Source of the DNA: a virus
Strand: one strand, 5' to 3'
Length of the DNA: 27,567 nt
IMG/VR virus record: IMGVR_UViG_3300021197_000702
Location: 1-27,567 of that record
Part shown: one piece after another, positions 4-27,312 of the stretch
Numbering within the stretch: position 1 is the stretch's first letter
Layout of the letters: every line of letters begins with the position of its first letter
Program-made: the position numbers and the translations under genes
Notes under the pieces: generated by a model
The model's database searches: none
What the model saw: only the letters and a program-made list of their open reading frames with translations
Told to the model about the DNA's origin: nothing

Positions 4-20
4 TAAACAACAGAGATATG
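4..20 (+). promoter_or_regulatory. Start-site leader motif, copy 1 (TAA-ACAACAGAGAT-ATG)
   Basis: The 11 bases ACAACAGAGAT lie directly between a TAA (4-6) and the ATG at 18. The same 11-mer occurs before the ATGs at 27089 and 27310, and one-mismatch copies precede 26536 and 26835. The fixed spacing to the start codon suggests a translation-initiation signal. It is not a classical Shine-Dalgarno site. The TAA would be the stop of the gene cut at the other end of the window if the molecule is circular. Confidence 0.75.
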
Positions 21-299
21 GCATACTATACGGGTGAAGAACTAGAGCAAGATTTGAAACAAACGGTCAAAGAATTAAACCGTCAGTTTACAGATGATTT
101 TACTTATAACTTTTATCTTGACCCAAGGTCAGGACTAGCTGAAATTTATATCGAAAACGAACTTATTTTAATTGATGATCCCGAAGATGTCAAGGACGTT
201 ATTTATGATAACGTAGGTTCAATTATGGATATTTTTGTTACAGAGTTAGGTATGGGCGAGTACAGTTTTCAGGTTATTGTAGAATACAACGAACTATAA
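18..299 (+). CDS. Small acidic protein of unknown function (93 aa)
   Basis: I do not recognise this protein. It has 93 residues with 22 Asp/Glu against 5 Lys/Arg, a net charge near -17. There is no cysteine, no signal peptide and no membrane segment. The middle alternates hydrophobic and polar residues (AEIYIENELILI), which suggests beta strands between acidic helices. The ATG at 18 is fixed by the preceding 11-nt leader. It is probably the last member of the acidic array that begins at 26032 and runs across the window ends, and it lies just upstream of the head protease gene. An early accessory or host-interaction role, such as a DNA-mimic inhibitor, is possible but is inference only. Confidence 0.8.
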   Translation: MAYYTGEELEQDLKQTVKELNRQFTDDFTYNFYLDPRSGLAEIYIENELILIDDPEDVKDVIYDNVGSIMDIFVTELGMGEYSFQVIVEYNEL

Positions 300-303
300 A
301 AAA

Positions 304-1221
304 ATGGAGCGTAAACTTGTTGAACTACTTATTGAAGAAGATTCTACTGCATGGGGAGTAGAAGCAATTAGCCTTGTAAAGTTTCCTGCAATCGAGGAGA
401 ACTTTGTTTTTTTCAGTAAGGATGGCAACACACGCGCAATGAGTTTAGCTGCTGTAGACGAAGACCAACGTACAGTAGTGGGTGCAGCTTTAATTCCTGA
501 CAAGCATATACCTCGAATTGACGAGAACACGGATGAAGAATACGATGTGTACTTCAGTAAGGAAACAGTCAAGTTGGCTAGTGAGTTGTTCTTAAAGCAA
601 AATCGTACAAACGATCACACAAAGGAACATCTTGAAAAAGTAGATGATGTAAGCGTAGTAGAGAGTTGGATTGTAGAAGACCCTGAACTAGACAAGAGCA
701 AGGTTTACGGTTTCGCAGTACCTGAAGGAACATGGATGGTAAAGCTACAGGTAGCCAACGATGAAGTGTGGACTGAGATTAAGGACGGAAAACTTCGAGG
801 GTTAAGTATTGAAGGTTACTTTTCAGATAAAGTAGAAGAAATGAGTCAGTCACTATCTATGAAGAAAGTATTTAAAAAGTTGTGGTTTGCTGTAAAGCGC
901 AAATTCTATCAGGAAGTAACCCTGTCACAAGGGTTTACCATTGCTACTGAAGACGAGAATATGACAGCAGGTAGCACAGTATTTAAGATTGATGACGAGG
1001 GATTGCCTACCGAATTAGCAAACGGTAAATACACAACTGAAGGGGGCGTAGAGTTAGAGGTGTACGAAGGTGTATTAACTGAATACAACGGTGAGGTAAA
1101 GGCTGTAGAAGACGAGGTAGAAGAAGAGAATGTAGAAATGGATAAAGTAGAATTGAACCAAAGAAAAGTGAAGTTCTATACAGCGTATCTAAAGCGTAAA
1201 TACTATAACACTTACGGATGA
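304..1221 (+). CDS. Prohead maturation protease, XkdF-like
   Basis: Likely the serine protease that trims scaffold and capsid in the immature head. The core at about residues 56-175 carries the marks of XkdF-type proteases as I know them from Bacteroidota phages: GAALIPDKHIPRID (60-73), YDVYFSKET (80-88), a histidine cluster HTKEH (105-109), VVESWIVEDPELDKSK (118-133), GTWMV (142-146) and LRGLSIEGYF (164-173). His109 and Ser168 are the probable catalytic pair. The C-terminal part (about 180-305) is charged and may be a scaffold-like or targeting segment. The length of 305 aa suits the family. The start follows an A-rich stretch five bases after the previous stop, and the end overlaps the next gene by ATGA. 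It opens the head operon with scaffold and capsid downstream. Confidence 0.85.
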   Translation: MERKLVELLIEEDSTAWGVEAISLVKFPAIEENFVFFSKDGNTRAMSLAAVDEDQRTVVGAALIPDKHIPRIDENTDEEYDVYFSKETVKLASELFLKQNRTNDHTKEHLEKVDDVSVVESWIVEDPELDKSKVYGFAVPEGTWMVKLQVANDEVWTEIKDGKLRGLSIEGYFSDKVEEMSQSLSMKKVFKKLWFAVKRKFYQEVTLSQGFTIATEDENMTAGSTVFKIDDEGLPTELANGKYTTEGGVELEVYEGVLTEYNGEVKAVEDEVEEENVEMDKVELNQRKVKFYTAYLKRKYYNTYG

Positions 1222-6065: not shown

Positions 6066-6650
6066 ATGGCTACGACACTATATATTAGTTCAAGCAAGCT
6101 AAAGCGTGATACGGCTTTAGGAAGCACAGTTGATGACAACCTGTTACAGCCTTACATTAAGATTGCTCAGGACAGATGGATTCTACCTGCTTTAGGCACA
6201 GAACTAGAAACCAAAATTAGCGCATTGATTGATGCAGGAACAGTGGCAGACGCAGGTAATGAAGCCTACGCAACCTTGTTAAATGATTACATACAGCCGT
6301 GTTTAGTGCAACTTGCATTTACAGAAGTTGCCTATGTAGTTCGTATGAAGTTTGCAAACAATAGCGTAGTAGTCAACGGATCAGAACAAGGTTCTGCTGC
6401 AAGTCTGACGGATATTAAAGTTGTAGTAGAGCAGTCGAATGAAATCGGTATGTTTTACCGTCAGCGTATGATTACGTACCTTCAGTTTAACAGCGGTTCA
6501 TTTCCTGAATACACAACTAACACAGGTGCTGATCTTTCACCTTCTCAACGTAATTACTTTGGAGGACTCAATGTATACCCACGGATTCCCACTGACAATC
6601 AAATCAAGTCAATTGCAACAGCTTTGGGCATTAGATATTACAACTCGTAA
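6066..6650 (+). CDS. Head-tail connector protein (DUF6712-like)
   Basis: Likely the adaptor that sits under the portal. The 194-residue protein carries a pattern I associate with DUF6712-type head-tail connectors of Bacteroidota phages: DDNLLQPYIKIAQDRWILPA (residues 23-42), LGTELETKI, then YATLLNDYIQPCLVQLAFTE and YVVRMKFANNSVVV. The all-helical N-terminal two-thirds agrees with gp6-like adaptors. It starts five bases after the portal stop behind AAACAAC, and the portal neighbour supports the role. The family assignment is from memory. Confidence 0.7.
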   Translation: MATTLYISSSKLKRDTALGSTVDDNLLQPYIKIAQDRWILPALGTELETKISALIDAGTVADAGNEAYATLLNDYIQPCLVQLAFTEVAYVVRMKFANNSVVVNGSEQGSAASLTDIKVVVEQSNEIGMFYRQRMITYLQFNSGSFPEYTTNTGADLSPSQRNYFGGLNVYPRIPTDNQIKSIATALGIRYYNS

Positions 6651-8220: not shown

Positions 8221-9423
8221 ATGGCAGAAATTTCAGGAGTATCAACAGCAGACATAGATAACGTAGACGGATTCTTTACTACGCAGGGAGGAAGCGGTAT
8301 ATCGCCAAACAGTATGCCTGCATCAGGAGTTAATGGTACGCTATTAATTGGTAACGGTTCAATACCGGCAAATCCTGCTGTGACAGCAGATTTCAACATT
8401 GGTACTACGGCTTCAGTAAGTTTTGTAAAAGTTCAAAGCGGGTATATTAACTCAGCTAACACAACTGCATTTTTAGGACTTACAGCGAACGGTGAATTAT
8501 GGTATAATTTGCAGCCGAGTGTAATTTGGAAGGCATGGGCAACTGCCGATGGCACATGGCGTAGATATGGAACTGCTACGGATTACGATGATATAGCCGT
8601 AGACCCTGACTGTAACTGTTTTGCAGCAATACGCAGTGGTGATTTATGGTTTGTAGGCTATGGTTCGAGTGGTCAAAGAGGAGATGGTTCAACATCATCT
8701 TCTAGTAGTTGGATCATAGTTAACAATTCTTTGACTTGGACATCTGTTTCTTTAGGTTCGCAGAAAATGGGCGCAGTTGATTCTAATGGCCACGTTTATT
8801 TTACGGGCAGGAACTATGATTACATGACCGGACAGGGTACTACTTCAGGAACTTTAACCACATTAACACGGGAACAAAATAACCTGACAGGAGTAACTTA
8901 TGTATTTGCAGGACCTTACAGAACTAGCTTAATTATAGCAAGTGGGAATATGTATGTTACAGGCAGGAACTATAATTATAAGGGAGGTGGTTTAGTTGGA
9001 ACTAATGGTACTATTAACGGACCAACATTAAGCGATAGTAGCGGAGATTTTGTATCTGTCCAATGCAATTATTGGTGTTCAATGGCAATTACTACAACAG
9101 GAACTTTGAGATTTGCAGGTGCTAATAGTTACAAAGCGCGTCCTGATAATGGAGCTAGTCAACAAACAGCAGCTACGGCTTTTGATGTAATTGATGGTGG
9201 GGCTACAGGCTATACCTATTTTTACCTTGGCGGTAAATCGTCAGATGGACAATTCCCTGCTTTTGCTATTAAGGGTGGGCAACTTAAAATGGGAGGAGGT
9301 ACTTATAGTTACGATGTAAAAGTAGCGTTAGGTTATCCAAGCAATAATAGTTGGGTAGACGTTGGGTATACAGGAGCAATAGCTGCTGCTAGTAGCAGAT
9401 ATATAAATGCACTATCATGGTAG
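8221..9423 (+). CDS. RCC1-like beta-propeller virion protein, candidate receptor binder
   Basis: Six spaced copies of a G-x-L/V-aromatic-x-x-G strand motif are visible: GELWYN (91), GDLWFVG (140), GHVYFTG (190), GNMYVTG (242), GTLRFAG (294) and GQLKMGG (353). The 49-59 residue spacing is that of RCC1-type propeller blades. Two blades share TGRNYxY at both protein and DNA level. An N-terminal segment (1-60; GVSTADIDNVDGFFT) differs and probably docks on the fibre encoded immediately upstream. RCC1-like repeats are known in some large phage virion proteins. Placement after the fibre and before lysis suggests a receptor-binding or adhesin tip, which is inference. It overlaps the next gene by 7 bases. 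Confidence 0.7.
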   Translation: MAEISGVSTADIDNVDGFFTTQGGSGISPNSMPASGVNGTLLIGNGSIPANPAVTADFNIGTTASVSFVKVQSGYINSANTTAFLGLTANGELWYNLQPSVIWKAWATADGTWRRYGTATDYDDIAVDPDCNCFAAIRSGDLWFVGYGSSGQRGDGSTSSSSSWIIVNNSLTWTSVSLGSQKMGAVDSNGHVYFTGRNYDYMTGQGTTSGTLTTLTREQNNLTGVTYVFAGPYRTSLIIASGNMYVTGRNYNYKGGGLVGTNGTINGPTLSDSSGDFVSVQCNYWCSMAITTTGTLRFAGANSYKARPDNGASQQTAATAFDVIDGGATGYTYFYLGGKSSDGQFPAFAIKGGQLKMGGGTYSYDVKVALGYPSNNSWVDVGYTGAIAAASSRYINALSW

Positions 9424-14084: not shown

Positions 14085-14190
14085 AGAATTACTAAGTGTT
14101 TGTTGTGGAACGCCACAAGTAGGTGACTATGAGATTTGCGTATCGTGTGGTGAACATACAGTTTTTGAAGATGGTAGTGACCAAGAGTAA
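14077..14190 (+). CDS. Zinc-ribbon microprotein (37 aa)
   Basis: A 37-residue gene overlapping its neighbours at both ends (8 bases with the gene before, 20 with NinG). The protein contains Cys-Cys (residues 9-10) and Cys-x-x-Cys (21-24): SVCCGTP, eleven residues, then CVSCGEH. The spacing fits a single zinc ribbon. Tiny CCG...CxxCGE proteins are common in early regions of phages. The likely role is protein or nucleic-acid binding. The retained cysteine pattern and coupled start argue that it is real despite its size. Confidence 0.7.
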   Translation: MNEELLSVCCGTPQVGDYEICVSCGEHTVFEDGSDQE

Positions 14191-14581
14191 AGCGAAAGCG
14201 AAATTAGACAAGGCGTTAAGCGATTATGTTAGGAAGTCTAGCGCAGATGAAAATGGCATAGCAAATTGTTTCACTTGCCTTGATCGCAAAAGTTGGAAAC
14301 TTATGGATTGCGGACATTTTATTACGCGAGCCAAGATGAGTACACGATGGCTTTACAAACCGTCTGAAGGATTAGTGAATGTCGCTTGCCAGTGTAAACG
14401 GTGCAACGGTTTTTTAGGGGGGCAGCAATATGTGTTTGCAAAAAGGTTAGACGCTATTTACGGTAAAGGAACAGCAGATAAAATTTTGTTAATGAGCAAT
14501 CAAACTACTAAATTCAGCATTGCTGACCTGCAAGAAATGACTGCACACTACAATGACCTGTTTCGAAAACTTCCTCAATAG
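14171..14581 (+). CDS. NinG-like recombination protein (HNH-type zinc nuclease fold)
   Basis: Resembles lambda NinG, the Rap Holliday-junction recombinase/endonuclease that resolves branched DNA. From Met14171 (136 aa): a Lys-rich N-terminus (KSKAKAKLDKALSDYV), a first zinc pair CFTC (33-36), the hallmark DCGHF (Cys47, His49), then a second cluster with Cys73, Cys75 and CN at 78-79 (ACQCKRCNG), followed by the C-terminal helix region. The pattern CxxC ... DCGHF ... CxxCN matches the family. The ATG at 14171 is chosen over a GTG at 14123 because it starts the typical basic N-terminus; this makes a 20-base overlap with the microprotein. It probably acts on replication intermediates. Confidence 0.82.
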   Translation: MVVTKSKAKAKLDKALSDYVRKSSADENGIANCFTCLDRKSWKLMDCGHFITRAKMSTRWLYKPSEGLVNVACQCKRCNGFLGGQQYVFAKRLDAIYGKGTADKILLMSNQTTKFSIADLQEMTAHYNDLFRKLPQ

Positions 14582-15074
14582 GGAATACAATACACTGCTC
14601 AGATATGCAGTATATCTTGTTGGCGAAACTTGGTCAAAGGATTTGCTGCACGATATGGCAATTACCCTACTAGCAAGATCGGAAGCATTAGAGCCTTTGT
14701 GCGAACGAAAAGAAATGCTACCTTACATGAAACGAGCAATGAGAATTGCAAGTTGGCATAAAGAAGGTAACTTTTTTAAACAGTACAGAGAGTACGAAAG
14801 ACGAAAGAAAAACGTGGACATTGAGCAGGTATTGCTAAATGACCATGAACTTATTGAATTAGAAAAAAAACAATTAGGCACAGCCTACAAAATGCTTGAA
14901 GAAATTAACTGGTTCGACAGGGAGATATTCAAGGCATATTATTTACATAGTCACACTTTAACAACATTCAGCGATGCCACAGGAATCAACAGACAAACAA
15001 TCTACAGAAGCATTAGGAAAGCCCAAGCGCACCTACAAGAAAAAAGCCAAGAAATCAAAAGGGCTAGGGGATGA
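14553..15074 (+). CDS. Sigma-factor-like transcription regulator
   Basis: A 173-residue protein with the outline of a minimal sigma-70/ECF-type factor. Residues 6-45 (FLNREYNTLLRYAVYLVGET, then DLLHDMAITLL) resemble region 2. Residues 120-165 (WFDREIFKAYYLHSHTLTTF, then TGINRQTIYRSIRKAQAHL) form a region-4-like helix-turn-helix. The two are joined by a basic stretch YRRYE-like at 78-86. Similar proteins are common in phages of Bacteroidota. It may direct host RNA polymerase to late genes, since no host-type promoter is evident before the terminase/tail or head genes. It overlaps NinG by 29 bases and the next gene by 101 bases. Confidence 0.7.
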   Translation: MTCFENFLNREYNTLLRYAVYLVGETWSKDLLHDMAITLLARSEALEPLCERKEMLPYMKRAMRIASWHKEGNFFKQYREYERRKKNVDIEQVLLNDHELIELEKKQLGTAYKMLEEINWFDREIFKAYYLHSHTLTTFSDATGINRQTIYRSIRKAQAHLQEKSQEIKRARG

Positions 15075-23948: not shown

Positions 23949-24112
23949 TGAAATACTGGATAAACGCCATAGGGTATGGAATCCCTTTAGCTGTACGTTT
24001 GGCGCAAGACGAAGAGCAAAAAGGCAAAAAAATGTGGTTGCATTGGTACGGTAGGCACGATTTAAAGGTTAGCGCGTTGAAGAAGATCAACTTAATACTG
24101 AAGAACCGATGA
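23948..24112 (+). CDS. Small basic hypothetical protein (54 aa) before tape measure
   Basis: A 54-residue gene wedged between the hub and the tape measure, overlapping both by 1 and 4 bases (TAATG, ATGA). The protein is basic and Trp-rich (MKYWINAIGYGIPLAVRLAQ, KKMWLHWYGRHDLKVSALKK). Its perfect fit between coupled starts and stops, and the unbroken operon spacing it creates, argue that it is translated. Possible roles are a small tail assembly factor or a virion component; I recognise no family. Confidence 0.7.
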   Translation: MKYWINAIGYGIPLAVRLAQDEEQKGKKMWLHWYGRHDLKVSALKKINLILKNR

Positions 24113-25974
24113 GTAATGACATGAATTTTAACCTAATCGGAGTCGACAAGGTTACACCTGCTGCTGAAAAAGCCACAAAATCATTAGATAATCTGAGCCA
24201 AAAAGCAGATCGTGCAGGTAAACGAGTAGGAAATACAGGCAGAACAGCTACTAAAGATTGGGCAGGGCTTGGAGATTTGTTTCAAGGCGTACTACCTAGG
24301 GGATTAACTCGGACGCTACGACAATTCAAATCAACGCAGCGATCAGTTTCACGATTAAGCAAAGGCTTTAAAGGATTGAAAAGTGCTATTGCTTCAACAG
24401 GAATTGGTTTGCTTGTTGTCGCTTTGGGTGCAATCGTGGGCTATTGGGATGATATATCAGCAGCTATCAGCAGTGCATCAGATGAAACAGATAAGCTAGT
24501 TGAAGAGAACAAAGAGTTAGTTCAAGCTGCAAAAGATCAGTTAGAAGCAATAAGTGCTACTGAGAATATCTTAAAACTGCAAGGGGCAACAGAAGAAGAA
24601 ATTCTAGCAATGCGCATGGCAGCTACAGACGAAGCCATAGCAGCGCAAAGGGTTATGATTGAGTCTTTAAAGACGCAACAGGAAGAACAAACTAAAGCAG
24701 CGCAAACAGCCAGCGATGTAGTCGCAGGTATATTGACCTTGCTTACAGCACCTGTAGCGGCAGCCTTAACAGCTATAGACGCAATAAGCGCAGGGTTGGT
24801 AAAGATTGGCGCACTAGAAGAAGCAACAAATTTTGCAGAAGGATTCTATACAGGCATTGGCGATATGCTGTTTGACCCTGAAGGAATAGAAGAAGACGGT
24901 CAAAAGGCAATTGATGAAGCAGAAGAACAACTTCAGCGTTTAGAAAATACACGAGCAGGCTATCAATTACGAGCCAATAAAAACGAGGAGCAGGCAGAAG
25001 CGGAAGCGCAAAAGAAACGAGATGATGCAGCTAGGAAAAGAGAGCAAGACGCGCAATTTGTAGCTGATCGATTAGCGAAGATACAGGAAGAAATGTATCT
25101 AGCTATGATTGAGGATGACATTATGCAGCAAAAGGAAAGGCGCAGGTTGCAGTACGAAGCAGACCAAGCAGAACTAAAAGCTAGGGGCGCAACATTTTCT
25201 CAGTTGCTAGTTTTAAAGCAACAGTATGATATGGATGTTGAGGCTTTAGATCAAAAAGCACTGGACAGAAGGAACGCTAAAGAAAAAGAACGACTAGATA
25301 AAGAAGCACAACTAGCTGAAGAATTTCGACAGAAGGAATTAACGGATAAGCAGCTAGAAGAAGAAGCAGCCTTTGCTGAATTTGAAAGACAGGAAGAGTT
25401 AGCAGGCACAAACGAGGCTTTGCTACTTGAGGCATTCGAAGCGTATCAAAGTCAAAGAGAAGCGATTAACGATAAATACAGTCAACAAGAAATTGATGCT
25501 AACCAAGAAGTAGTCGATTTAGAGATTCAAGGCAGGCAGGCATTAGCTAGGGGGATAAGCGGTGTGTTTAAGCAAATGGGTAGGTTAGCAGAACAGAACA
25601 GCCAAGAACAGAAACAGTTAGCCGTTGCAGACGTATTGCTTAATCAAGCTATTTCAATGGCAAACGCAGTAAGGGCAGCATCAGAAACAGCTAAAGACCC
25701 TATTTCTTTAGGTGTGCTTATTACTACTATGGTAGGTGGTGTGCTTAGTAGCTTTGCAAATATTAAAGGAATCTTAGACCAAGCAGGAACATCAGGCGGT
25801 AGCGTAGGGGGCGGTTCATCAAGACAAACTCGATCAGGCTTTGACACACAAAGCACAGCACCGATGCCTACACGCTTACAATCAGAAGGAGGGATGCAAG
25901 CCTATGTAGTACAGAGTCAACTTGAAGGACAGGCAATGCAGGCGCAACAACTAACTTCTAAAACTACCCTTTAA
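24109..25974 (+). CDS. Tape measure protein
   Basis: Sets tail length and is ejected with DNA. The 621-residue protein has the classic make-up: an Ala/Lys/Ser-rich N-terminus (VTPAAEKATKSLDNLSQKAD), a hydrophobic helix pair at about 96-120 (IGLLVVALGAIVGYWDDISA) and 203-235 (ASDVVAGILTLLTAPVAAAL), a long charged coiled coil (about 262-480), and a C-terminal hydrophobic region (LLNQAISMANAVRAASETAK, about 509-560) with a Gly-rich tail. At the usual 1.5 Angstrom per residue this predicts a tail about 90 nm long, typical for a siphovirus. It begins with an ATGA overlap. It is the last gene of the tail operon. Confidence 0.88.
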   Translation: MSNDMNFNLIGVDKVTPAAEKATKSLDNLSQKADRAGKRVGNTGRTATKDWAGLGDLFQGVLPRGLTRTLRQFKSTQRSVSRLSKGFKGLKSAIASTGIGLLVVALGAIVGYWDDISAAISSASDETDKLVEENKELVQAAKDQLEAISATENILKLQGATEEEILAMRMAATDEAIAAQRVMIESLKTQQEEQTKAAQTASDVVAGILTLLTAPVAAALTAIDAISAGLVKIGALEEATNFAEGFYTGIGDMLFDPEGIEEDGQKAIDEAEEQLQRLENTRAGYQLRANKNEEQAEAEAQKKRDDAARKREQDAQFVADRLAKIQEEMYLAMIEDDIMQQKERRRLQYEADQAELKARGATFSQLLVLKQQYDMDVEALDQKALDRRNAKEKERLDKEAQLAEEFRQKELTDKQLEEEAAFAEFERQEELAGTNEALLLEAFEAYQSQREAINDKYSQQEIDANQEVVDLEIQGRQALARGISGVFKQMGRLAEQNSQEQKQLAVADVLLNQAISMANAVRAASETAKDPISLGVLITTMVGGVLSSFANIKGILDQAGTSGGSVGGGSSRQTRSGFDTQSTAPMPTRLQSEGGMQAYVVQSQLEGQAMQAQQLTSKTTL

Positions 25975-26031: not shown

Positions 26032-26310
26032 ATGAAAAAAACAAAACTCGGTTATAACGGTTGGGCAAATTATGAAACGTGGAGTGTAGGAGTACACGAT
26101 TACATTGAATTTTTAGCTGAAACAGCTATAGACAATGGGGATTTGCAAGTTGACGCATCGTGGTGTGAAGATTATATGTACGATTTGCTTGAAAGTGAAA
26201 TGCCAAATGACGGGTTGTTACGACAGCTTTTAAATGGCGCATGGTCGGAAATTGATTGGCGAGAAGTAGCTGAACACGTTAACGACACTATCTTAGACAT
26301 TGGTATCTAA
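26032..26310 (+). CDS. DUF7249-like acidic protein
   Basis: A 92-residue protein that I match to the DUF7249 type of phage protein by its core GWANYETWSVGVHDYIEFLA (10-29), corresponding to the family's N-Y-E-T-W-N-V-x-L motif, and by a terminal EIDWREVAEHVND (74-86), corresponding to D-W-R-E-I-A. Function is unknown; such genes occur in accessory parts of phages and plasmids. Net charge by hand count is about -14 (19 acidic, 5 basic). It is the first gene of the acidic array, behind the candidate promoter at 25984, and overlaps the next gene by TAATG. Unlike five of the others it lacks the 11-nt leader (AACAAAGTC precedes its ATG). Confidence 0.75.
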   Translation: MKKTKLGYNGWANYETWSVGVHDYIEFLAETAIDNGDLQVDASWCEDYMYDLLESEMPNDGLLRQLLNGAWSEIDWREVAEHVNDTILDIGI

Positions 26311-26531
26311 TGAATATTCGTAGAGAACAAGATTCATTTGAAGACTACTTAGATTCGGTAGGCATGGAATATGACAGCGTATCAGGACTTACGCAGGTAT
26401 TCATGCGTCAAAATGATTACGATGTGTTCTTTACAGACAGGGGGATTGAGGTAGAAAGCTATGCACCTATGATGGGCAATGTAGAATTTATAAACGCTGA
26501 CCAGTTGATTGATTGGTTTGAAGAACAATAG
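26310..26531 (+). CDS. Small acidic hypothetical protein (73 aa)
   Basis: Not recognised. A 73-residue protein with 17 acidic and 4 basic residues, net about -13. Helical N-terminus (DSFEDYLDSVGMEY), beta-like middle (LTQVFMRQNDYDVFFTDRGI), and a final helix ADQLIDWFEEQ. It starts one base inside the previous stop (TAATG). Its stop codon TAG (26529-26531) forms part of the leader motif of the next gene. Confidence 0.75.
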   Translation: MNIRREQDSFEDYLDSVGMEYDSVSGLTQVFMRQNDYDVFFTDRGIEVESYAPMMGNVEFINADQLIDWFEEQ

Positions 26532-26538
26532 AGATATG
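26525..26538 (+). promoter_or_regulatory. Start-site leader motif, copy 2 (ACAATAGAGAT-ATG)
   Basis: One mismatch (C to T) from ACAACAGAGAT. The change creates the TAG stop of the preceding gene within the leader, four bases before the ATG at 26536. This decides the start of the next gene: ATG 26536 rather than the in-frame TTG at 26509. Confidence 0.7.
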
Positions 26539-26823
26539 ATAGCAGACAGAATCTTACAAAAAGCACTAAAGGGCGCAACCTTTGCCGAAGCGTTAGGTGT
26601 GGTATATAATTGTTTAGAATGGGCGAATGCTCATGCTGAAAACAGAGAATTGGAAAGTGAATTTGGGCAGGCTGATTACAGTTATTTTGAATATGCTTCT
26701 GAAGTCACTAGCAACGTTGATTGGAACATTGACTTAATTTTAGACTTACTAGCTGACAATTTAGATAGCGCAGGTTTTGGACATTTAGCAGATTGGTGTG
26801 ACGAGCAAGCAGCAAAATATTAA
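26536..26823 (+). CDS. Small acidic hypothetical protein (95 aa)
   Basis: Not recognised. A 95-residue protein, almost all helical, with 18 acidic and 5 basic residues (net about -13): DRILQKALKGATFAEALGVV at the start, NCLEWANAHAENRELES, NVDWNIDLILDLLADNLDSA and a final FGHLADWCDEQAAKY. The alternating amphipathic helices could form a compact bundle. The start is set by the leader motif; an upstream TTG start would add nine residues that are read in the previous gene's frame overlap. It has two Cys and several Trp. Confidence 0.75.
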   Translation: MIADRILQKALKGATFAEALGVVYNCLEWANAHAENRELESEFGQADYSYFEYASEVTSNVDWNIDLILDLLADNLDSAGFGHLADWCDEQAAKY

Positions 26824-26837
26824 CCAACAGAGATATG
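26824..26837 (+). promoter_or_regulatory. Start-site leader motif, copy 3 (CCAACAGAGAT-ATG)
   Basis: One mismatch (first A to C) from ACAACAGAGAT. It sits exactly between the TAA of the preceding gene (26821-26823) and the ATG at 26835. Confidence 0.75.
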
Positions 26838-27077
26838 GTTATAGAAATAAAAGGATTATCATTTAACGAAGTACACGACTACTTAGATTCACGAGGTGCA
26901 GGTGAAGGTGATTTGGATATTTACATTGATGACTATGGCTATGTCGATGCTGAGGCAGGAGATATGCGAAGAATGGTTGAGGTAACAGTGAATGATCCTG
27001 ATGCCGAATATATTTTAGATGGGATCATGGCAGACTTGGAAGATGAAGAGCCAGACGCAGAAATCAGTTACCTATAA
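26835..27077 (+). CDS. Very acidic hypothetical protein (80 aa)
   Basis: Not recognised. The most acidic member of the array: 24 Asp/Glu against 4 Lys/Arg in 80 residues, net about -20. It begins with a beta strand (MVIEIKGLSFNEVHDYLDSR), has a Tyr/Asp-rich centre (DLDIYIDDYGYVDAEAGD) and ends in ILDGIMADLEDEEPDAEIS. Charge, size and lack of cysteine recall DNA-mimic inhibitors such as Ocr or ArdA-type antirestriction proteins, but there is no sequence match that I can see. The leader motif precedes the ATG. Confidence 0.75.
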   Translation: MVIEIKGLSFNEVHDYLDSRGAGEGDLDIYIDDYGYVDAEAGDMRRMVEVTVNDPDAEYILDGIMADLEDEEPDAEISYL

Positions 27078-27091
27078 ACAACAGAGATATG
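27078..27091 (+). promoter_or_regulatory. Start-site leader motif, copy 4 (ACAACAGAGAT-ATG)
   Basis: An exact copy, directly between the stop TAA (27075-27077) and the ATG at 27089, in the same arrangement as copies 1 and 5. Confidence 0.75.
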
Positions 27092-27298
27092 GAACGAATT
27101 ATAGTGATGCATGATGACTTAACAGACGTTGTTTCTGACTTGCAAAACGCAGGGGTCTATAGTTTAATCTACTCGGTAAAATATGGTAATCTAGGTAATG
27201 TCATTGTCATGACTGAAGACTTGGACGATATTGAATTTCAAGATGTCATGGACACTTTGTATGACAATTACGGAAGGGAATACGTTACTTACGACTAA
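27089..27298 (+). CDS. Small acidic hypothetical protein (69 aa)
   Basis: Not recognised. A 69-residue protein with 15 acidic and 3 basic residues (net about -12). The pattern is a helix DDLTDVVSDLQNAG, strands SLIYSVKYGNLGNVIVMTED and a helix FQDVMDTLYDNYG, a beta-alpha arrangement somewhat like the 18-299 product (a strand pair followed by a D-V-x-D-x-x-Y-D-N helix). Both carry a YDN near the helix end, so distant relation is possible but unproved. Confidence 0.75.
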   Translation: MERIIVMHDDLTDVVSDLQNAGVYSLIYSVKYGNLGNVIVMTEDLDDIEFQDVMDTLYDNYGREYVTYD

Positions 27299-27312
27299 AC
27301 AACAGAGATATG
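27299..27312 (+). promoter_or_regulatory. Start-site leader motif, copy 5 (ACAACAGAGAT-ATG)
   Basis: An exact copy between TAA (27296-27298) and the ATG at 27310, which opens the gene cut by the window end. Confidence 0.75.

Follow-up and report, generated by a model that had tools for sequence, protein, structure and literature searches.

The described systems closest to the locus analysed here are the cassettes of integrons, the start-associated sequences of mycobacteriophages, the boundary sequences of lambdoid phages and the start regions of Bacteroidota genes. The attC of integrons is a folded site of about 57 bp or more that lies at the cassette end. The cluster K mycobacteriophages carry start-associated sequences (SAS; PMC3203893), for which a survey of 188 genomes is available (PMC12699233). 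SAS have the consensus GGGATAGGAGCCC, with a Shine-Dalgarno (SD) core and a variable upstream context, and about half are accompanied by upstream 17-bp inverted repeats termed ESAS (PMC3203893). As cited in one account, lambdoid phages have short conserved boundary sequences at gene borders that were proposed to serve the homologous exchange of modules, and such sequences could not be found at most mosaic borders (PMC3029335). In Bacteroidota, start regions show Kozak-like adenines at -3 and -6, and A is also frequent from -14 to -11. Work with reporters and ribosome profiling in Flavobacterium johnsoniae has shown that initiation is promoted by A at positions -13, -12, -6 and -3, A at -3 being favourable in Flavobacterium and G at -3 unfavourable in one reporter (PMC6847099).

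Here we analyse a 27.6-kb phage genome (IMG/VR record IMGVR_UViG_3300021197_000702, positions 1-27,567, one strand; the whole stretch is called the window) in which small genes are joined by a conserved 17-nt unit, TAA-ACAACAGAGAT-ATG, which takes in one gene's stop codon, a leader of 11 nt (leader A) and the next gene's start codon. This seam is a new variant of start-associated and boundary sequences. Like SAS, it is short and asymmetric, abuts the start codons of numerous small genes that are unrelated to each other within a single group of phages, has a proposed role in translation initiation and comes in lineage-specific variants (in cluster K, of the ESAS repeats); SAS are rare in their host, and the seam is near chance frequency in bacterial genomes. 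It differs from SAS in its consensus, ACAACAGAGAT, which has no SD and does not match GGGATAGGAGCCC, in including the previous stop codon at a fixed distance, in serving genes that form one shuffled array and in a leader that itself differs wholesale between lineages; the inverted repeats of ESAS have no counterpart, conservation stopping at -14. As at lambdoid boundary sequences, module identity ends at a conserved sequence, but here one standard 17-mer stands at nearly every cassette border and its type sorts recent exchangers. With integron cassettes the array shares single-gene units of variable order and mostly unknown function with standard borders; it differs in that no integrase was found among the window ORFs scanned with PHROGs/Pfam, that there is no palindromic attC but only a conserved 17-nt block, that the borders are stop and start codons, and that the cassettes are carried on small phage genomes. 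Finally, leader A resembles Bacteroidota start regions in its adenines at -13, -12, -11 and -6 and in having no SD (no AGGAG), but it is invariant at non-adenine positions too, two of its initiation-favouring adenines belong to the upstream TAA, and position -3 is G in leader A and in the alternative leader C described below (A in leader B). A literature search found no occurrence of the leader A, B or C sequences, and a keyword search found nothing on such cassettes.

The named genes of the window all lie on one strand and comprise a head protease, portal, amidase, replication initiator, NinG/Rap nuclease, sigma-like protein, TerL and tape measure. Because the end of the window joins its start in frame (ORF 27310 continues into TAC TAA at positions 1-6) and the contigs of relatives are permuted, with terL split across the record ends in G001 and G005, we take the window as circularly joined, so that the five leader-bearing genes are adjacent (Table 1). 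The nearest cultured phage found with the same genome plan is Nonlabens phage P12024L, whose protease matches at 43% over half its length; it has no array and a single, chance-like match. Nearly all of these small phages have a NinG/Rap junction endonuclease, and P12024L has Erf and YqaJ in the region corresponding to the NinG/Rap region. The sigma-like gene of the window (14553-15074) encodes a small protein with a region-4-like HTH that is conserved in the whole group, and sigma-70 region 2 is annotated on gp35 of P12024L. The product of 8221-9423, which lies among the structural genes, matches RCC1-like repeats (regulator of chromosome condensation) in PHROGs (E 3e-13). In the relatives, the starts of core genes lack an SD and are rich in A between -14 and -10, and TATATTTG, a promoter element of the Bacteroidota -7 type, lies just upstream of the first leader in some arrays (L088, L093, L096, L117). 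Its presence only before some first cassettes suggests one promoter per array, and these two features, with P12024L as nearest cultured phage, point to hosts that are probably marine Bacteroidota.

Table 1. Array features, bordering genes and the NinG/Rap gene of the window.
Feature	Coordinates	Strand	Remarks
Tail length tape measure protein	24109..25974	+	left border of array region
DUF7249 ORF, without leader	26032..26310	+	left of array
ORF without leader	26310..26531	+	its TAG stop lies inside leader copy 1
Leader copy 1, ACAATAGAGAT	26525..26535	+	C to T at -7
Cassette 1, 95 aa, family 1	26536..26823	+	AF2 model pLDDT 95.7, six helices
Seam 2, TAA-CCAACAGAGAT-ATG	26821..26837	+	A to C at -11
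Cassette 2, 80 aa, family 2	26835..27077	+	
Seam 3, TAA-ACAACAGAGAT-ATG	27075..27091	+	exact
Cassette 3, 69 aa, family 90	27089..27298	+	family only in window
Seam 4, TAA-ACAACAGAGAT-ATG	27296..27312	+	exact
Cassette 4, 87 aa	27310..27567	+	crosses record end to position 6 (TAC TAA); relative in L313
Seam 5, TAA-ACAACAGAGAT-ATG	4..20	+	exact
Cassette 5, 93 aa, family 54	18..299	+	
Head maturation protease	304..1221	+	constant right border of array
NinG/Rap junction-specific endonuclease	14123..14581	+	phrog_5034, E 1.3e-18; widespread in these phages; candidate recombination function

The preliminary description of this DNA had reported an 11-nt leader fused to five start codons, and all copies were recovered as it had listed them: leader A abuts the ATGs at 18, 27089 and 27310 exactly and those at 26536 and 26835 with one mismatch each, giving five matches to the motif plus ATG at no more than one mismatch, against 0.02 expected in dinucleotide shuffles, a number reached in 0 of 100 shuffles. 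In copy 1 the change at -7 creates an in-leader TAG, which is thereby the stop of the upstream ORF, and the same arrangement occurs in L006, L019 and L094. Scanning IMG/VR with the pattern TAAACAACAGAGATATG returned 65 stretches, about half of which hold 3-7 exact copies roughly 250 bp apart. The enrichment before starts that had been proposed as a test was found in 13 relatives, in which all 64 exact 11-mers follow a TAA and none lies inside a gene. The claim of a leader placed immediately before ATG stood for 57 of these 64 copies, while six of the other seven read ...GAGATG and overlap an ATG two bases earlier or nearly so. The 11-nt leader taken as the unit is indeed conserved, but the true block is larger: across 176 motif-led starts of the relatives it extends from the T of the stop codon at -14 to the G of the start codon at +2 and is sharp at both ends, with 1.4-2.0 bits per position inside and at most 0.43 bits outside. 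The preliminary description missed that the motif takes in the stop codon, that it is the border of exchangeable cassettes, and that homologous cassettes follow different leaders according to lineage. Among some 232 pairs of successive genes, 197 have exactly 11 nt between stop and ATG, and TAA ends 256 of 256 array cassettes as against 155 of the 280 ORFs of at least 150 aa in the same genomes; some of the loci in these TAA and spacing counts were found with a TAA-containing pattern, and those found through the protease (L006-L021) behave the same. Within the leader, positions -6 and -2 vary least and -7 most. The suggestion that the motif is kept for itself holds. In the cassette pairs compared, identity is 89% in the leaders and 50% at 4-fold sites, and leader A is retained across phages whose TerL identity to the window falls to 54%. 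Elsewhere in the window, a structural gene at 6066 starts at TAAACAAC-ATG, which corresponds to the first half of the seam without AGAGAT.

The genes behind the leaders are as dissimilar as had been claimed. The 280 ORFs that follow the motif have a median length of 79 aa and sort into 92 BLAST families, the protease being one, and profile-profile comparison placed only 1 of 861 family pairs above 80% probability. The family representatives are very acidic, with a median pI of 4.06 and 99% below pI 5, compared with 47% of the other window ORFs. Among 88 representatives, Pfam matched 3 families, PHROGs 6 and PADLOC 3, most of them weakly; the array products may include anti-defence proteins. 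AF2 models of families 1 and 2 had no PDB match below E 0.001, that of family 2 showing only a faint ferredoxin/PII-like resemblance. In other phages, relatives of family 2 stand behind leaders A, B or C or have no leader, and those of family 54 stand behind leader A in L139 and leader C in L301 and L307; no relatives of either family were found in cultured phages.

In related IMG/VR phages, arrays of 3-11 cassettes usually lie between the tape measure and the head protease, the number of array genes in that interval ranging from none (L049) to about eleven (L127). Content and order vary from phage to phage, with 140 distinct neighbour pairs among 206 adjacencies. The phage L006, whose protease is 98% identical to that of the window, shares only family 2 with it in the array. 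Conversely, cassettes that are 97-99% identical in amino acids occur in phages with only 58-59% protease identity, and cassettes up to 98-100% identical have different neighbours; a family 6 cassette, for example, is 100% identical between L127 and L168, yet both neighbours have changed. When homologous cassettes with different neighbours are aligned, identity is 0.7-1.0 over the 17-mer and drops at either end, with the first base beyond it, to chance-like values of 0.15-0.45. Together these comparisons constitute strong evidence for cassette exchange at the seam.

Two other leaders occupy the same position relative to cassettes in other phages. Leader B (TAA-AACAACTTAAAG-ATG) is found in a sister group in the same tape measure-protease region, and leader C (TAA-ACCACAACGAT-ATG) in another group whose array lies downstream of the protease; aligned on the ATG, leader A agrees with C at 8 of 11 positions and with B at 7 of 11. 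Homologous cassettes of families 71, 35, 57, 2, 54, 8, 9 and 13 stand behind different leaders in different phages, the leader type matching the resident array and not the cassette, and none of the genomes or contigs examined held two leader types. In a tree of eight core proteins, which was quickly made and has some long branches but agrees with the protease tree, the B phages form two separate clades nested within A (SH-aLRT 99-100). GC content is 0.406-0.458 in A phages, 0.355-0.398 in B phages and about 0.43-0.51 in the C array contigs. Location and GC do not strictly fix the leader type, since the GC-rich phage G023 retains a pair of worn A copies, one of them after TAG, on the downstream side of its protease. 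A short, worn array (L317:3000-4282) lies downstream of the protease with leaders of type A, one of which follows TAG, and its cassettes end in TAG or TGA; it is apparently decaying at the location used by C-type phages. Taking a cassette identity of at least 90% (amino acids) with a protease identity below 80% as recent exchange, we counted 35 of 132 A-A pairs, 3 of 6 B-B pairs (exchange between the two B clades included) and 0 of 22 A-B pairs, the pairs not being independent; the best A-C cassette match is 69%. Shared hosts alone may account for exchange within types, and they are a confounder because leader type also follows GC content.

Taken as RNA, the seam most likely provides each cassette with its translation start region, an SD-less, adenine-based signal. 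The suggestion of an initiation signal in the preliminary description holds in so far as the adenines at -13, -12 and -6 fit the Bacteroidota rules, but the motif is not a general host signal, nor a general initiation signal of sequenced bacteria: a scan of bacterial and archaeal genomes totalling 257 Gb gave 33 single matches to the 17-mer against about 30 expected by length. The only array of the 17-mer in these 257 Gb is a 5-kb contig (L168; JAFMIA010000163.1, 1-4977) from a Pseudomonadales MAG, which holds five exact seams and the protease of this group and is probably misbinned phage DNA. Comparison with four rRNA loci gave no 16S rRNA pairing to the leaders beyond that of shuffles, the anti-SD end not being located in the stretches compared, so that this comparison carries little weight. 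The supply of two initiation adenines by the TAA of the previous gene would explain why the spacing is fixed and why TAA alone is used. Furthermore, conservation at C-10, G-5, G-3 and T-1 is similar to that of the adenines; this exceeds what initiation rules need and points to either homogenisation by exchange or a recognising factor.

We consider it probable, from these comparisons of sequence, that the leader is the constant part of a connector, TAA-ACAACAGAGAT-ATG, a translation-start module that doubles as a recombination seam for interchangeable cassettes. The array would be polycistronic, its ATG...TAA units interchangeable and joined by the connector. While we infer both the use of the seam by ribosomes and its use in homologous recombination, exchange through the repeat is the simplest account of the borders, since the repeat is the only sequence shared there. 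As DNA, the repeated 17-mer would thus most likely supply the homology by which phages gain, lose and swap whole cassettes, those with the same leader being able to share cassettes through their matching 17-mers. Such turnover would keep copies alike within a pool or genome and let them drift apart between pools. The NinG/Rap nuclease and an SSB-like protein, also found in these phages, are candidate helpers. Against this reading, homologous recombination would have to work with a stretch of 17 bp, which is short, and the window yielded no recognisable gene for an annealase or recombinase; leaders A and C have G at -3, where A is favourable in Flavobacterium; and the protease has a leader in some phages (the near relatives L006, L007 and L019) but not in others, the window included.

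Among the alternatives, one is that the leader is an mRNA binding site through which a phage or host factor, either a small RNA or an RNA-binding protein, controls all genes of the set. Selection by this factor would keep the copies identical and change them jointly between lineages, which would fit the exactness at non-adenine positions and the wholesale change of leader between lineages. Substitutions are also unevenly spread over the leader (p=0.0017), but they fall mostly at -7 and the unevenness is not significant without that position, and by gene presence no family was found confined to all A or all B phages. We regard this explanation as unlikely; by itself it leaves both the end of cassette identity at the seam and the inclusion of TAA unexplained. 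The precise borders and one-gene units would equally suit an integron-like system whose recombinase targets the seam and cuts cassettes in and out; this is quite improbable given that neither integrase nor transposase was found among the window proteins scanned (PHROGs/Pfam), that the 17-nt block is asymmetric and too short for attC, and that the three leaders would each need their own enzyme when no type-specific gene was seen.

An RNase cutting at the leader to release monocistronic messages would account for its presence at every gene junction at a fixed distance to ATG, but conserved structure-forming flanks are absent and the cassette borders and invariant TAA would go unexplained, making RNA processing very improbable. 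We give still less credence to a promoter before each gene. The TATATTTG element upstream of the first leader in some arrays is of the Bacteroidota -7 type, but its restriction to some first cassettes is what a single operon promoter predicts, the conserved block itself is without TAnnTTTG, and nothing upstream of -14 is conserved. The tandem arrangement might recall the recent duplication of one gene, with the leader as a functionless leftover. This scarcely credible account is refuted by families that are unrelated in profile comparison and by a leader that is conserved while the third codon positions of cassettes have diverged to 50%.

The seam could also be a lineage-specific exchange standard, so that accessory genes are traded only or mainly among phages with the same connector, in an integrase-free cassette pool with the translation signal as compatibility key; this is a tentative proposal that we would place somewhat short of an even chance. 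Two origins have long been debated for phage mosaicism, homologous exchange at boundary sequences and illegitimate recombination followed by selection, and the question has stayed open because boundary sequences are missing at most junctions. With a standard boundary at nearly every junction, three versions of it and homologous cassettes behind each, the question becomes testable here. The array also provides a ready list of about 90-100 families of small, very acidic and almost wholly uncharacterised phage proteins. Finally, it suggests that, where bacteria do not use Shine-Dalgarno sequences, the start signal of a gene can include the stop codon of the gene before it.
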